Source: Streptomyces sp. NA04227
Lineage (GTDB): Bacteria > Actinomycetota > Actinomycetes > Streptomycetales > Streptomycetaceae
DNA length: 64,000 nucleotides
NCBI RefSeq assembly: GCF_013364195.1
Contig: NZ_CP054918.1
Coordinates: forward strand, 7,243,001-7,307,000
Reading direction: 5' to 3'
Below the pieces are notes generated by a model. The model did not search any database. It had not been told where the DNA came from and worked only from the letters and a program-made list of their open reading frames with translations. Both the position numbers and the translations under genes were made by a program. Every line of letters starts with the position of its first letter. Position 1 is the stretch's first letter. Positions 33,161 to 39,465 of the stretch are shown in pieces.

Positions 33161-33307
33161 GGCGCCACTCCTGGTGGGTGCGGTGCGGGGGGATGAGCGG
33201 GTGGGGCGAGGGCGTGTGGGGGACATGAACGTCAACGAATACACGGTGACGGGGTCGCGGGCGTGGAGGCGCCCAGGGAACGGGCGGAGAGGTCCCGGCA
33301 GTTGTGA

Positions 33308-33338
33308 CATGCCCCTGGGCGCTACCATGCGGGGCATG
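33308..33338. promoter_or_regulatory. Inverted repeat in the photolyase/acetyltransferase divergent region
   Basis: The 307-bp region 33161-33467 has no gene. It contains an 8-bp perfect inverted repeat, CATGCCCC and GGGGCATG, separated by 15 nt. A TTGTGA (33302) and a TACCAT (33323) resemble -35 and -10 boxes, but the 15-nt spacing is short. It may be a promoter or operator for the acetyltransferase; evidence is weak. Confidence 0.35.
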
Positions 33339-33467
33339 GAGTGCTTTGCCGCTTGGCGTACGCGTCACTGAGGGCCGGCTCACCGCCGATCCTTCGGCCG
33401 GGAGCGGGCCGACCGATGCCCCTGTTCCGACCGGGTATCAAGCCCTCAGCCCGAAAGGCACACTTCC

Positions 33468-33950
33468 ATGCGCATTCGCGCGTTCAGCCAGCACGACCTG
33501 GCGCCGCTCACCGAACTGACCATCGAGACGTTCCGGCCGTTCTACGAGGACTCCTTCCGCCCCTTGGTGGGCGAGGTCGTCTTCTCCAACCAGCACGGCA
33601 ACTGGCGCGAGGAATACCGCGAGCAGGTCGCGGAGCTCCACGCACCCGAGCGGCACACCTACGTCGCGGTCGCCGAGGCCGAAGACGGCATCGCGGGTTA
33701 CGTGGCGTGGAGCGTCGACCCGGCTCGCCGCAACGGCAGTGTCACGCTCCTCTCCGTTTCGGCCAGACACCGCCGACACCACCTGGGCACCGCCCTGTGC
33801 GAGCACGCCTTCGAAAGGATGCGAGCACTCGGAGCCGAGGTAGTCGAGATCGGTACCGGAGGAGACCCGTTCCACGCACCCGCCAGAGCGCTGTACGAGA
33901 GCCTCGGGTGCACCCCGCTCCCCGTCACCGTCTACTACCGGCAGCTCTGA
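33468..33950 (+). CDS. GNAT-family N-acetyltransferase
   Basis: A 160-residue single-domain acetyltransferase that would move an acetyl group from acetyl-CoA to an amine. The acetyl-CoA pyrophosphate loop is seen in VSARHRRHHLGTALCEHAFE (motif A, R/QxxGxG-like), followed by the ALYESLGC segment typical of motif B. The ATG follows a GAAAGG-type site. Its substrate (protein N-terminus, antibiotic or metabolite) cannot be deduced. It is convergent with the ABC-F gene and shares a terminator with it. Confidence 0.87.
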   Translation: MRIRAFSQHDLAPLTELTIETFRPFYEDSFRPLVGEVVFSNQHGNWREEYREQVAELHAPERHTYVAVAEAEDGIAGYVAWSVDPARRNGSVTLLSVSARHRRHHLGTALCEHAFERMRALGAEVVEIGTGGDPFHAPARALYESLGCTPLPVTVYYRQL

Positions 33951-34056
33951 GCCGAGCGGTGTCCGGGGCCGCGAGGGAGTCCAAGGAGTAGTTGCAGCAA
34001 GGTAGTTGAGCTGCGGCGGTAGGAGTGCGGTACCTGTTGCCCCGCCACCCGCGCAG

Positions 34057-34090
34057 GTGGTCCGGCCGGGGATGACCCCGACCGGACCAC
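34057..34090. terminator. Bidirectional terminator between acetyltransferase and ABC-F genes
   Basis: A 9-bp perfect stem (GTGGTCCGG/CCGGACCAC) continues after one mismatch into a 5-bp CGGGG/CCCCG stem closed by an ATGA loop. It sits between two convergent stop codons and 14 bp from the ABC-F stop. Confidence 0.8.
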
Positions 34091-34104
34091 TCCTCACCCC
34101 CGGC

Positions 34105-35751
<1,647 letters not shown>

Positions 35752-35848
35752 ATGACTTTCCCTGAGTGTGCGTGGGTCTACGGGTGGCGGAAACGGCGGC
35801 AGTGGCCGTGGCCCGGACTCAGCGGAAGTAGTAGTACGAGAAAGTCAT
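35752..35848 (-). promoter_or_regulatory. Putative translational attenuator of the ABC-F gene
   Basis: In the mRNA, the first three leader codons (ATGACTTTC, 35848-35840) are perfectly complementary to GAAAGTCAT (35760-35752), which abuts the ABC-F start codon and overlaps its AGGGAAAG ribosome binding site. The 9-bp pair would close a loop of about 79 nt and hide the start. A ribosome held on the leader would cover the first strand and free the second. A small CGGC/GCCG hairpin with a CACT loop lies inside the loop. A short palindrome AGACG-ATG-CGTCT (35864-35876) lies just upstream of the leader. Confidence 0.65.
35819..35848 (-). CDS. Leader peptide MTFSYYYFR upstream of the ABC-F gene
   Basis: A 9-codon ORF, ATG at 35848 and TGA ending at 35819, encodes MTFSYYYFR. 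A GGTGG-like ribosome binding site precedes it closely. Three consecutive Tyr flanked by Phe residues, followed by Arg, give a bulky aromatic peptide of the kind that can stall a drug-bound ribosome. Leader peptides with such a role are established for ermC and for ABC-F genes such as msrD and vmlR. The present peptide is inferred to act the same way from its position, composition and complementarity to the downstream start region. Confidence 0.7.
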   Translation of the reverse strand: MTFSYYYFR

Positions 35849-36015
35849 GACGCCACCATAGCAAGACGATGCGTCTCGTCTCACCCTGATTTCCGAAGAA
35901 CCTGGTGAGGCGCGTCGCCTTGTGTGTGGTGAGGGGGTGGCTGTGCACGTCCCCGGCGGTGGCCGGTCGGCGGCAGGGCTGCGGCCGGGGACGGTTCACC
36001 GCCGGGTCGGTGCGG

Positions 36016-37623
36016 TCAGCGCAGTGGGTCGAGGACCGCGCCGGGGTTGAGGATTCCCGCCGGGTCGAGGGTCGCCTTGCCCGCGCGCAGGGCGGCGGCG
36101 AAGAGGTCGGGGCGCTGCCGGTCGTACCAGGGCCGGTGGTCGCGCCCCACCGCGTGGTGATGGGTGATGGTGGCCCCGCTCGCGAGCAGTGCCTCGGAGA
36201 CCGCCGCCTTGATCTCGTCCCACTGCTCGACGGTCTTGCCCCACTCGCCGGCCGCGTAGATGCCGAAGTACGGCGCCGGGCCGTCCGGGTAGACATGGGT
36301 GAACCGGCAGGTCACCACCCCCCTGGCGCCGACCTGGCGCAGGGCATCGCGGGCGGCGTCGTCGACGGCCGCGCGCAGGGTGTCGAAGCGGTCCCAGGTG
36401 CAGGCGGTCTCGAAGGTCTCCACGATCATGCCCTGGGCCGCCAGCACGTCCCGCTGGTAGGGCATGCGGACGAAGGCGGAGCGCCAGGTGTCGGCCGCAC
36501 CGGTACGCGCCGCCTGTTCCGCGCTGTCGGTGTAGCGGGGCGGCTCGGGCAGCGTGCCGCCGTGGTCGCGGCACAGTTCGAGCGCGCGGTCCATCCGGGC
36601 CGTGACGGGGTGATCGGCCGATTCGAAGCCCAGTACCAGGACGGCGGTCGGGGAGCCCGCGTTGATCAGGGCCTCCATCGGGTCCAGGAGACGGCAGTTG
36701 GCCGGGTCCAGCCCGGACTGCGACAGCGCGCGCACCGCCCGGACACCCGCGTCGTGGTCCGCGAACGCCACCGAGGCGCCCGCCCGCCACCGCGGCCGGT
36801 CCTGGAGGCGGACCCAGGCCTGGGTGATGACGCCGAGCGACCCCTCGGAGCCGAGGAACATCCGGTCGGGCGACGGGCCCGCGCCCGAGCCCGGGAGCCT
36901 GCGGGTCTCCAAGGTGCCGGACGGTGTGACGACGCGCAGCGACTCGGTGAGGTCGTCGATATGGGTCAGGCGCGTGGCGAAATGGCCCCCGGCCCGGGTC
37001 GCGAGCCAGCCGCCGAGGCTGGAGAACTCGAAGGACTGGGGGAAGAAGCGCAGCGTGTAGCCCCTGGGCCGCAACTGCTCCTCCAGGTGCGGGCCGAGGA
37101 CCCCGGCCTGGACGAGCGCGGCCCGGCTGGTCGGGTCGACCTCCAGGACCCGGTTCATCGCGGTGAGGTCGAGACTGACCACGCCCGCGTACGCGCCGCC
37201 CACCCGTGGCTCGACGCCGCCCACCACCGAAGAGCCGCCGCCGAACGGGACGACAGCGATGTTCGCCTCGGTGCACCAGTCCAGTACGTGGACGACCTGC
37301 GCCTCGGACGTCGGGCGTGCGACCAGATCGGGCACGTGGGGCAGTTTGCCGAGAAGTGCGCGTACGACATCGCGGAAGGCCTGCCCGTGACTGTGCGCGA
37401 GCCGGTCACGTACGTCCTCGGAGAGAATCGGTGCCAGGGCCGACGGCGCCGCGACCCTGCTCGCACCCACACCGAACGCCTCGATGGGCGGAGCCTCGTG
37501 CACGGTCGGGTCGGCGCACGGCAGCAACTGCGCGGTGCGCCGGGTGAGTTCGTCGCGCTCGGCGCCGGTCACCGCGTCCTCGACGTTTCCCCATCCCCAC
37601 CACGAGCGTGTCTTGCCGCTCAT
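36016..37623 (-). CDS. FAD-binding oxidase, alkyldihydroxyacetonephosphate synthase-like
   Basis: A 535-residue flavoprotein of the PP-loop (VAO/GlcD) family. The FAD domain shows VPFGGGSSVVGGV for pyrophosphate binding and the FFPQSFEFSSLGGWLATRAG and GSEGSLGVITQ segments. The C-terminal ITHHHAVGRDHRPWY with its His triplet is characteristic of alkylglycerone-phosphate synthase homologues. In eukaryotes that enzyme swaps an acyl for an alkyl group on DHAP in ether lipid synthesis. Actinobacterial homologues are poorly understood and may be oxidases of other hydroxy or lipid substrates. It is divergent from the TetR gene with 65 bp between starts and is probably its target. Confidence 0.88.
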   Translation of the reverse strand: MSGKTRSWWGWGNVEDAVTGAERDELTRRTAQLLPCADPTVHEAPPIEAFGVGASRVAAPSALAPILSEDVRDRLAHSHGQAFRDVVRALLGKLPHVPDLVARPTSEAQVVHVLDWCTEANIAVVPFGGGSSVVGGVEPRVGGAYAGVVSLDLTAMNRVLEVDPTSRAALVQAGVLGPHLEEQLRPRGYTLRFFPQSFEFSSLGGWLATRAGGHFATRLTHIDDLTESLRVVTPSGTLETRRLPGSGAGPSPDRMFLGSEGSLGVITQAWVRLQDRPRWRAGASVAFADHDAGVRAVRALSQSGLDPANCRLLDPMEALINAGSPTAVLVLGFESADHPVTARMDRALELCRDHGGTLPEPPRYTDSAEQAARTGAADTWRSAFVRMPYQRDVLAAQGMIVETFETACTWDRFDTLRAAVDDAARDALRQVGARGVVTCRFTHVYPDGPAPYFGIYAAGEWGKTVEQWDEIKAAVSEALLASGATITHHHAVGRDHRPWYDRQRPDLFAAALRAGKATLDPAGILNPGAVLDPLR

Positions 37624-37648
37624 CGCCGCACCACCTATCTGAACGTGG

Positions 37649-37659
37649 GGTAAGTTACC
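37649..37659. promoter_or_regulatory. Palindrome GGTAA-G-TTACC in the TetR/oxidase divergent region
   Basis: An 11-bp perfect palindrome with a one-base centre lies 25 bp from the oxidase start and 29 bp from the TetR start. Its place in a 65-bp divergent promoter region makes it the best candidate operator for the TetR protein. This assignment is inferred. Confidence 0.5.
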
Positions 37660-37688
37660 TGGCGGTCAGATTGGCATAGGGTGGCGCC

Positions 37689-38366
37689 ATGGGCAAGCAG
37701 GAGTCGGGCACGCGCGGGGCGGGCACCAGAAGCGGGGTGGGCACCAAGGGGATGCCCCGCAAGGAGCGGGAGCAGCTGATCCTCGACGCGGCGGCCGAGG
37801 AGTTCGGTCACAAGGGCCACGCACGCGGCTCGACCGCCGTCGTGGCGGCGCTCGCGGGGATCACCAAGCCGCTGATCTACGAGTACTTCGGGTCCAAGGA
37901 CGGCCTCTACCTGGCCTGCCTGGAGCGTGCCGGATCCCGCCTGGTGGAAGCGGTCGGCTCCGCGGCGGAGGGGCCCGCCGACCTCACGCACGCCGCGCGC
38001 ACCATGGCGGCGATCTTCCGGGCGCTGGAGTCCCGCCCGCACGACTGGGAACTCGTCTACGACTCGACCCTGCCCGCCGACACGGAACTCGGTGCCGCGG
38101 CCGCCGTCTACCGGCGGGAACTCAACCGCCTCGGCGCGGTGGGCGTCGCCGCGTTCCTCGGCGGATCCCGCGCCGCCGACCCCCGCGCCGACCCTCTCGA
38201 CGCGGACTTCGCCACGCACCTCTGGTACGGCACGGTGAGCGCCGCGGTCGCCTGGTGGCGGCATCACCCCGAGCAGACCGCCGCCGAGATGACCGCGCGC
38301 TTCGGGCGGGTCTTCGCTGTGCTTCAACCGGGGCTGGGGTTGGGGCGGGAGCCCGGGGAGGGGTAG
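37689..38366 (+). CDS. TetR-family transcriptional regulator
   Basis: A 225-residue repressor. The N-terminal DNA-binding region has EREQLILDAAAEEFGHKG, then the helix-turn-helix segment STAVVAALAGITKPLIYEYF and GSKDGLYLACL, all typical of TetR_N. The C-terminal two thirds is the variable ligand domain. It probably represses itself and the divergent FAD oxidase through the palindrome between them. An unusual feature is that the frame continues past the TAG stop into a long Ser-rich repeat tail (see the repeat at 38370-38483). Confidence 0.92.
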   Translation: MGKQESGTRGAGTRSGVGTKGMPRKEREQLILDAAAEEFGHKGHARGSTAVVAALAGITKPLIYEYFGSKDGLYLACLERAGSRLVEAVGSAAEGPADLTHAARTMAAIFRALESRPHDWELVYDSTLPADTELGAAAAVYRRELNRLGAVGVAAFLGGSRAADPRADPLDADFATHLWYGTVSAAVAWWRHHPEQTAAEMTARFGRVFAVLQPGLGLGREPGEG

Positions 38367-38368
38367 CG

Positions 38369-38483
<115 letters not shown>

Positions 38484-38551
38484 GTGGCGACGGCTGAGTC
38501 GCGGGCCGCGCGCCGAAGCGGCCGTCGAGCTTCCTGCCCTGCCAACGGCGG

Positions 38552-38592
38552 GTGGTGCGCGCGGAGTTGTGGCGTTCCTCCGCGCGCACCAC
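38552..38592. terminator. Bidirectional terminator, 15-bp perfect stem
   Basis: GTGGTGCGCGCGGAG at 38552-38566 pairs perfectly with 38578-38592 around an 11-nt loop. It lies between the convergent TetR gene and the RTX-repeat gene, 7 bp from the stop of the latter. Confidence 0.82.
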
Positions 38593-38598
38593 GGCCGG

Positions 38599-39465
38599 TC
38601 AGTGCTGGCTGACCTCGTCGGTGCCCGGACCGCCGGAGAGGGTGTCCTTGCCCTCGCCGCCGCGCAGGACGTCGTCGCCGCTGTTGCCGTAGAGCGTGTC
38701 GGCGCCCGCGTCGCCGTACAGGCGGTCGTTGTCCTTGCCGCCGTAGAGCGTGTCGTTGCCGTCGCGCCCGTGCAGGACGTCGTTGCCCTCGTCGCCGTAG
38801 AGGTGGTTCTCCTGCCACTCGGGGTAGTCGGGGTCCTGGACGCCGCCGCCGGTCAGCGAGTCGTTCCCGGCGCCGCCGTGGCACTCGTACGAGCAGTCGG
38901 TGAGGGTGTCGTCGCCGTTGCCGCCGTAGGAGCCGATGCCCCAGATTCCGCCGCCGCCCTGGATGCGGTCGTTGCCGTCCTCGCCGTGCATGACGACCGA
39001 GGCGTTGCCCGTCAGAACGTCGTTGCCCGCGCCGCCGCGGATGGTGGCGTAGGCGCTGTCCTTCGGGTTGACGGAGAAGGTGTCGTCGCGGTCACCGAGG
39101 TTGACGCGGTAGTTGTCCGAGTCATCGGAGTTCTCCGGGATGTGCACCCGGCACTCGACGACCTTGTGGTCGGACGCGGAGGGGTAGGTGCACTCCCGGG
39201 CCTTGGCGTCGATGTTGTTGCGGTCGCGGAAGGTGAGGACGTACTCGGAGTCGTTGGGCCCGTTCTCCACGACCCGGGCGGACACGGTGAGTTCGTTCAC
39301 CTGGCCGGGAGCGGCGACGAACGTGAGCTCGGCGTCCTCCCACACCATCTCGGCCGCGGCCGGAGCGGCCTGGGCCGCGGGCGCCGCCAGGGCGGCACCG
39401 CCGAGGATGAGGGCAAGAGCGCCGGTGGCGGCGGCGACGGAGCGGTACGAGGGATATGTGCGCAT
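38599..39465 (-). CDS. Secreted RTX-type (haemolysin-type) calcium-binding repeat protein
   Basis: A 288-residue secreted protein. Residues 1 to about 30 form a Sec signal peptide (MRTYPSYR, hydrophobic ALALILGGAALAA, then AQA). Residues about 35-130 are a beta-rich domain with a CTYPS...CRV Cys pair. The C-terminal half has 9-residue GGxGxDxLx repeats: GGAGNDVLT, GEDGNDRIQ, GGNGDDTLT, GGAGNDSLT, then GDEGNDVLHGRDGNDTLYGG and further units to SGGPGTDEV. These fold into a calcium-filled beta roll outside the cell. No enzymatic domain or type I secretion gene is nearby, so Sec export and a surface or matrix role are inferred. The ATG follows GAAGGG. Confidence 0.9.
   Translation of the reverse strand: MRTYPSYRSVAAATGALALILGGAALAAPAAQAAPAAAEMVWEDAELTFVAAPGQVNELTVSARVVENGPNDSEYVLTFRDRNNIDAKARECTYPSASDHKVVECRVHIPENSDDSDNYRVNLGDRDDTFSVNPKDSAYATIRGGAGNDVLTGNASVVMHGEDGNDRIQGGGGIWGIGSYGGNGDDTLTDCSYECHGGAGNDSLTGGGVQDPDYPEWQENHLYGDEGNDVLHGRDGNDTLYGGKDNDRLYGDAGADTLYGNSGDDVLRGGEGKDTLSGGPGTDEVSQH

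Follow-up and report, generated by a model that had tools for sequence, protein, structure and literature searches.

The 64-kb stretch of DNA analysed here, hereafter the window, comes from a Streptomyces genome of 7.9 Mb assembled as a single contig. Its minus strand carries a gene for an ABC-F protein, which passed the NCBIfam model NF000355 (ribosomal protection-like ABC-F) with 396 bits against a cut-off of 380. The best-scoring NCBIfam model was NF000171 (TlrC/CarA/OleB/SrmB); the score of 700.6 bits lies below its cut-off of 800, and we do not claim membership of ARE4 or of the TlrC-CarA-OleB-SrmB group. Upstream of this gene, a sequence-only reading of the same DNA had placed a nine-codon aromatic leader peptide and an RNA switch. 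The features of the locus are as follows.

34105..35751, minus strand: ABC-F gene, an ORF of 548 amino acids, ribosome-protection type, with two PF00005 stretches
35751-35749, minus strand: ATG start codon of the ABC-F gene
35752..35760, minus strand: GAAAGTCAT, the putatively masked strand, overlapping the Shine-Dalgarno (SD) region and abutting the ABC-F ATG
35756..35763, minus strand: AGGGAAAG, SD region of the ABC-F gene, the same or similar in most relatives
35776..35818, minus strand: predicted hairpin GUC-CGGG..ACGG / CCGU..CCCG-UA-GAC, between leader and SD
35848-35819, minus strand: leader ORF ATGACTTTCTCGTACTACTACTTCCGCTGA, encoding MTFSYYYFR, predicted to be leaderless
35840..35848, minus strand: ATGACTTTC, candidate anti-SD strand, leader codons 1-3, with 9 Watson-Crick pairs to 35752-35760
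35855..35860, minus strand: -10 hexamer TATGGT, 6 nt ahead of the leader ATG
35864..35881, strandless: operator-like palindrome AGACGA-N6-TCGTCT, between -35 and -10
35879..35884, minus strand: -35-like hexamer GTGAGA, with an 18-nt spacer (short-UTR consensus ttGagg)

A search of 33300-38700 against Rfam gave no match at the leader. The single match in that interval was a weak one to ASdes (24.5 bits, gathering threshold 40), inside the ABC-F gene and on the other strand.

A short aromatic reading frame behind a -10 box

Relatives of the ABC-F gene were taken from a genome-contig scan as the best 80 of 140 loci, with 66-89% identity in the best segment; the named loci with the same gene are nearly all from Streptomyces. 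For these 80 loci and the window, 330 nt upstream of the gene were read, giving 81 regions. A TAnnnT box closely followed by a short ORF with aromatic residues near its end was found in 79 of the 80 loci and in the window, the sole exception among these best 80 of 140 being L028, which has the ABC-F gene with no leader. With closely similar criteria the sense strand gave 80/81, the reverse strand 0/81 and the first 330 nt inside the ABC-F gene 0/81, while 100 mononucleotide shuffles gave a mean of 0.11 and a maximum of 1/81. When the promoter was ignored, an ORF of 6-11 codons ending in Phe-X-TGA was again present in 80 of the 81 regions. The first scan, which was unfiltered, had returned candidates in 78. 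The proposed leader MTFSYYYFR is thus well above chance, and we take it to be real.

All 80 leaders, 6-11 codons in length, have Phe as the penultimate residue and UGA as the stop. The last residue is Leu (30), Val (30), Arg (18), Pro (1) or Met (1), and MAFLFFV, MAFFYFL, MRHYFFL and MGSYYFFR are frequent peptides. Length varies by whole codons, as in MAFLFV, MAFLFFV and MAFLFFFV, and Tyr, Phe and His exchange in such a way that the bases are altered and the aromatic character is kept. The Tyr run, on which the arrest of the ribosome had been placed, is not conserved; what is invariant in all 80 is the end, composed of Phe, one residue and UGA. The leader is evidently a translated short ORF whose RNA would be able to mask the ABC-F start.

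In all 80 leaders that were found blind to the promoter, the distance from the end of a TAnnnT box to a candidate start is 6 nt (53 leaders) or 7 nt (27 leaders); every other gap length, up to 39 nt, was seen a single time. According to the excerpted text of PMC8079986, the -10 box of S. lividans lies on average 6.3 nt from the transcription start and 17% of transcripts are leaderless. By the spacing standard of that source (PMC8079986, as excerpted), which sets the -10 box 5-7 nt ahead of the start codon, all 80 leaders fall within the range. Because the gap is 6 or 7 nt throughout, the leader is predicted to be leaderless. This bears on the claim that it has its own ribosome binding site. 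The bases meant are presumably GGTGGCG, which belong to the end of the -10 hexamer TATGGT and to the 6-nt gap before the ATG; since they lie upstream of the predicted 5' end, these Gs would be promoter DNA and not mRNA. The claimed binding site is therefore most likely promoter DNA.

Pairing energies with the 16S tail were calculated for the same starts. Taken at face value, the energy at the window leader is not weak (-6.3 kcal/mol, against -5.2 kcal/mol for the ABC-F gene), and values of -6 kcal/mol or lower are reached by 35 of 79 leaders, compared with 23 of 79 random coding positions and 8 ABC-F starts. However, the mean before the leaders, -4.34 kcal/mol, is no better than that of the random coding positions, -4.53 kcal/mol, and in the 30 loci with long UTRs, where an SD before the leader is clearly lacking, it is worse than random (-2.61 kcal/mol). 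A leader led by a ribosome binding site was judged unlikely from the -10 spacing and the mean energy, with the 35 leaders and the window value counting on the other side. In two loci found later, L178 and L191, the -10 box ahead of the leader is imperfect. A consensus promoter scan of 35700-36020 returned 0 sites.

The palindrome between the -35 and -10 hexamers is the only exact copy of AGACGA-N6-TCGTCT in the window, and its 21-mer has no other site within 3 mismatches in the genome. With up to 2 mismatches it is present at 37 of the 49 loci with short UTRs (up to 105 nt), at 3 of the 30 with long UTRs (111-259 nt) and in 0 of 980 shuffles. No copy was seen at the divergent TetR gene (37624-37688). 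A palindrome GAGACGtATCGTCTTG, at this site among others, recurs at ABC-F promoters of two families (f1 and f15), which suggests a putative shared repressor as a second layer of control. It occupies three positions, namely between -35 and -10, over the -10, or upstream of the -35, and its loci besides the window are L106, L110, L112-L117, L136, L137, L139-L141, L146, L151 and L152. In the long-UTR clade, many of the loci without the palindrome carry an A-rich patch (GGAAAACCG and similar; L049-L080) about 35-45 nt ahead of the leader; we take this patch to resemble WhiB7/WblC promoters.

Pairing between the leader and the Shine-Dalgarno region

The first nine bases of the leader show, as the sequence-only reading had stated, perfect antiparallel complementarity to GAAAGTCAT (35760-35752), a stretch that overlaps AGGGAAAG (35763-35756) and directly adjoins the ABC-F ATG. 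This exact pair holds in the window and is not general. A column alignment was made of 47 of the 81 sequences; it omits L028, the more distant loci and, on account of insertions or longer UTRs, L008, L025, L033 and L037. In it, the start-codon part of the helix (columns 1-4) is paired in 66.5% of cells, on which account the exact 9-bp helix was rejected as a general feature, and the CTTTC/GAAAG core (columns 11-15) in 84.5%. In other loci the anti-SD stretch is at the end of the leader. Shifted pairs of 10 bp are found in L075 (with AGGAAG), in L219 (with GGGGAAG) and in L011, and the leader of L047 has a 9-bp pair with TTGGAAAG. What persists across loci is that one part of the leader or another pairs with the SD region.

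The strength of this pairing was compared with several controls in 79 loci, L077 being omitted as its SD is not clear. Duplexes of leaders with their own SD have a mean of -14.73, against -12.43 (sd 0.23) for swapped partners, and none of 2000 permutations was as low (n=79); like the Fisher test and the codon counts below, this swap test takes no account of relatedness. The gain over synonymous leaders drawn with host codon usage is -2.9 kcal/mol on average. The fraction of synonymous leaders that pair as well is 0.05 or less in 52 of the 79 loci (38 of 49 with short and 14 of 30 with long UTRs), with a median of 0.017 and a mean of 0.18. In the window this fraction is 0.01 with host codon usage and 0.07 with uniform codons. 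Among 27 later UTRs, obtained by model search and not identical to earlier ones, 19 reach 0.05 or less (median fraction 0.023); 11 of these 27 leaders were already in the first set, and of the 16 with a previously unseen leader sequence 11 reach 0.05. Thus 27 of the 79 loci in the first set and 8 of the 27 later ones fall short, and in L018, L020, L025, L031, L035 and L210 synonymous leaders pair equally well or better (fraction about 0.95 or more).

The gain over synonymous leaders is due to rare codons, which are used where they make CTTTC. The second codon is GCT in 32 of the 34 leaders with Ala at this position; of the 5685 Ala codons in ABC-F gene bodies, 138 are GCT. For Phe, TTT makes up 25 of 206 leader codons against a background of 12 of 568. 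A CTTTC leader and a GAAAG SD occur together in 46 loci, neither in 19, only the leader motif in 11 and only the SD motif in 4 (n=80; Fisher 1.9e-7, relatedness ignored). The same peptide, MHFFYFL, is found in L008 and L011, with TTT and GGGAAAG in one and with TTC and GAGGAAG in the other. We also matched nearest neighbours by ABC-F protein into 52 disjoint pairs, of which 42 differ on both sides. In these 42 sister pairs the own partner is better in 22, worse in 8 and tied in 12 (sign p 0.008, Wilcoxon 9e-5). Taken together, these comparisons indicate that the complementarity of leader and SD is selected. It had been suggested that the idea would fall if homologues lacked both the leader and the pair. 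This is not the case, as the leader is present in 79 of 80 loci and the pairing exceeds the synonymous, swapped and sister-pair controls, though not as an exact 9-bp helix.

Covariation, which had been proposed as a check of the 9-bp pair, gave a mixed outcome when run over the named structure. Two-sided changes are few (3 pairs, 6 cells), and 166 of 500 shuffles also reach 3 pairs. The covariation score of 0.067 is above all 500 shuffles, but slid versions of the structure match it (0.075 and 0.069). Overall, 89.3% of the cells of the named structure are paired, compared with 36-60% for the slid versions. The leader-SD helix is absent from the RNAalifold consensus of the 47 relatives. The weak support from columns is explained in part by the shifting of the anti-SD stretch within the leader, which is beyond a column alignment. 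The helices of the internal hairpin are paired in 98.1% and 100% of cells in the 47 relatives, with no two-sided changes; being nearly invariant, this hairpin draws no support from covariation either way.

Folding of single sequences addresses the same region. The minimum free energy structure of the window contains the leader-SD helix, and its fold energy is ordinary when compared with shuffles (z -0.57). In the 49 short UTRs, the mean unpaired probability of SD and start is 0.28 in the free RNA and 0.50 when the leader and 9 nt are covered. Covering the stretch just downstream gives 0.26, and synonymous leaders give 0.38. The value with the leader covered is above that of the control block in 49/49 and the free value is below the synonymous mean in 44/49. 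For the window, the corresponding values are 0.24 (free), 0.53 (leader covered), 0.19 (control block) and 0.30 (synonymous leaders). In the 30 long UTRs, calculated without a control block, the probability goes from 0.33 to 0.54 on covering the leader, with a clear rise in 23 and a fall in 1. The SD is thus predicted to be paired in the default fold and to be freed when the leader is covered.

Distribution and neighbouring loci

R1, a model built on the short-UTR form, was searched against two genome sets, in both cases with the stricter filters. Within the genus, 48 of the 392 genomes sampled gave a match. At phylum level (296 genomes), matches were confined to the own genome and a second one from the same genus. 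At 48 of 392 genomes, the element would be common enough to matter for intrinsic resistance. Besides the own locus, 47 loci were matched; at 43 of them, L178 and L191 included, an ABC-F gene comes after the leader. L218 has the leader before another gene, L216 is a decayed copy with a truncated ABC-F gene, L221 is a spurious chance match and L201 was not classified.

At L218/L225, the leader MTYLFFV precedes a protein of 316 amino acids (L225:1520-2470, minus strand), for which Pfam gave no match at 0.001 and NCBIfam none above 15 bits. Its HGD...N...D motif resembles, we presume, that of aminoglycoside/macrolide kinases. Of 199 genomes, 18 contain relatives of this protein, and in 5 of the 18 (L226, L227, L228, L231 and L235) these stand behind an ABC-F-like frame, so that L218 looks like the same operon minus its ABC-F gene. 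The protein is possibly a partner drug-modifying enzyme. An 8-bp pair is possible between the L218 leader and the new SD, but it does not exceed what synonymous leaders achieve (0.61-0.64).

A wider sample of ABC-F genes comprised 84 loci, 44 of them returned by the search (window included) and 40 picked from the rest. At 66% identity or more, a candidate leaderless ORF is present in 12 of 13, the exception being L103, a match without the N-terminus. Three of the 12 carry the dissimilar MWSFYGYANRLRSL, which is identical in L101, L102 and L158, from two genera, and lies 288-310 nt before the ABC-F homologues. Below 66%, a candidate leader was found in 23 of 71 loci, including the recurring set MRLYFFL/MRLYIFL/MRLTFL and MGSL/MGTL; the reverse strands of the sample gave 2 candidates, none of them aromatic. 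The leaders that start with MRL (MRLYFFL, MRLYIFL, MRLTFL and MRLQIFL; L112, L113, L115, L136, L137, L140, L151 and L152) are leaderless candidates too, and the ABC-F genes behind them are about 55% identical to that of the window. We take their MRL start to recall the ErmDL arrest motif. In the own genome, 11 upstream stretches of other ABC cassettes, picked by domain position and not all ABC-F, showed no aromatic leader in the leaderless scan. One of them has a leaderless candidate, MAILLVH (L088:1-1201, ahead of another ABC gene), which may be a chance occurrence.

Proposed mechanism and relation to known systems

The reading that we favour, and consider likely, is translational attenuation in which the codons of a leaderless aromatic leader mask the ABC-F SD, with drug arrest as the probable inducer. 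Transcription would start at the leader AUG or 1-2 bases from it, and ribosomes would load on the 5' end with no SD. The leader would be an ORF of 6-11 codons, rich in Phe and Tyr and ending in Phe-X-UGA, whose pyrimidine-rich codons double as the anti-SD strand. Once it has been read and the ribosome has gone, the leader codons would pair with the GGGAAAG region and shut the ABC-F start; in the short-UTR form, the nearly invariant hairpin would separate the two strands. A ribosome arrested on the leader would cover it and leave the ABC-F SD open. For this arrest and the direction of regulation that follows from it, we infer that the most likely site is the Phe-X-stop end, in the presence of a tunnel-binding drug, e.g. 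a macrolide. Counting against this reading, the SD and start are only half open with the leader covered (0.50), and the masking model leaves unexplained how a buried 5' AUG begins a new round.

An arrested ribosome could instead prevent an early terminator from forming, as in msrD and lmrC. In Streptomyces, lmrC is controlled by transcription attenuation and the same has been proposed for tiaA and are5sc (excerpts of PMC8546547 and PMC12421871), and UTRs of 111-259 nt, at 30 of 79 loci, leave room for terminator structures. However, a scan of the minus strand in 35700-36020 of the window found no terminator-like site between leader and gene, the selected complementarity targets the SD region, and most of the short UTRs are close to 90 nt long with no T-run. 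We consider transcription attenuation unlikely. The lack of a terminator-like site in the window scan, with the predicted folding switch, leads us to prefer translational attenuation for the short-UTR form; the 30 long-UTR loci may be controlled at the level of transcription.

It is also conceivable that no drug is sensed, and that each ribosome reading the leader briefly opens the SD and sets a basal level only. Masking and opening, as folded here, require no arrest. Such plain coupling does not account for the conserved peptide end (Phe-X-stop in 80/80) or for Tyr/Phe/His exchanges that keep the aromatic character, and ABC-F resistance genes are usually induced through arrest on a leader (excerpted text of PMC10201436); we regard plain coupling as quite improbable. 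An amino-acid attenuator sensing charged tRNA-Phe or tRNA-Tyr, for which the Phe- and Tyr-rich leader and the leaderless leader peptides for Leu, Trp, Ile, Met and Thr in S. lividans (PMC8079986, as excerpted) could be cited, is hardly credible, since the downstream gene is a ribosome-protection ABC-F and not one of aromatic biosynthesis or a synthetase, Tyr and Phe interchange, and one copy of the element precedes a kinase-like gene.

Beyond translational attenuation at this locus, the leaders could represent a family of antibiotic-sensing leaderless leaders in actinobacteria, an evenly balanced proposition in our judgement, where the first ribosome on a bare 5' end opens or locks a resistance gene. 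The same few codons would serve as a drug-responsive aromatic arrest motif and as the anti-SD strand, and the mRNA would begin with the sensor peptide. The cassette of operator, leaderless leader and hairpin would be portable, one genome having it before a kinase-like gene. If this is true, antibiotic sensing would depend on leaderless initiation, and an aromatic Phe-X-stop peptide family would be linked to a class of ribosome drugs yet unnamed. In Streptomyces and relatives, a ribosome halted on the leader, probably by an antibiotic, could switch on the ABC-F gene.

Searches of the open-licence PMC literature for a leader of this description, including six exact peptides, found none, and searches there for ABC-F, OleB and TlrC/SrmB/CarA leaders and for leaderless attenuation found no description of the leader. 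Streptomyces ABC-F attenuation, leaderless amino-acid leaders and classic translational attenuation are already known. Leader control of ABC-F genes had been called established in Firmicutes, which is too narrow, as attenuation of lmrC, tiaA and are5sc in Streptomyces is published (PMC8546547 and PMC12421871, as excerpted). These genes resemble the present one in being Streptomyces ABC-F genes under ribosome-mediated attenuation. The excerpts of the same two papers describe uORFs MLV (are5sc) and MVGDDDISG (tiaA) with ribosome binding sites, UTRs of 232 and 194 nt, stalling at the start codon by lincosamide, streptogramin A and pleuromutilin, a terminator/anti-terminator model and ARE5 proteins. 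For tiaA, a translational reporter alone responded, and control at translation is possible there too (PMC8546547, PMC12421871, excerpts). Before cplR, vmlR, vmlR2 and lsaA the uORFs have 3-4 codons, and pleuromutilins, lincosamides and streptogramin A presumably stall them with little need for context (excerpt of PMC10201436); the uORF of tiaA, with the same drugs, has nine codons.

Streptococcal msrD is alike in its short hydrophobic leader, MsrDL (MYLIFM), before a macrolide ABC-F gene. Erythromycin arrests MsrDL at the stop codon and release is blocked, which may be set beside the invariant Phe-X-stop end of the window-type leaders; MsrDL has a ribosome binding site, mostly a UAA stop and a Rho-independent terminator (excerpted text of PMC10314930 for msrD). 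With 6-11 codons, an invariant Phe-X-stop end and a gene nearest to TlrC/CarA/OleB/SrmB, the window-type leaders would by analogy fit a macrolide arrest of the MsrDL type better than the pleuromutilin/lincosamide/streptogramin A type. They differ from MsrDL in being predicted leaderless, in the UGA stop (80/80) and in pairing directly with the SD. The ermC system consists of mutually exclusive hairpins of four segments. ermC-type translational attenuation is alike in that a masked SD is exposed by leader arrest (PMC10219788, excerpt). In the window-type leaders, unlike in ermC, the leader codons would themselves be the masking strand, a design that, if true, is simpler than that of ermC or msrD. 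A leaderless short ORF before a regulated gene is shared with leuL, trpL, ilvL, metL and thrL of S. lividans (PMC8079986) and with the mycobacterial polycysteine short ORFs cited in the review PMC9031893; as excerpted, these two sources describe actinobacterial leaderless leaders that sense amino acids and none before a resistance gene. Within the open-licence PMC literature, the leaderless start, the peptide family and the direct masking of the SD by leader codons look new.
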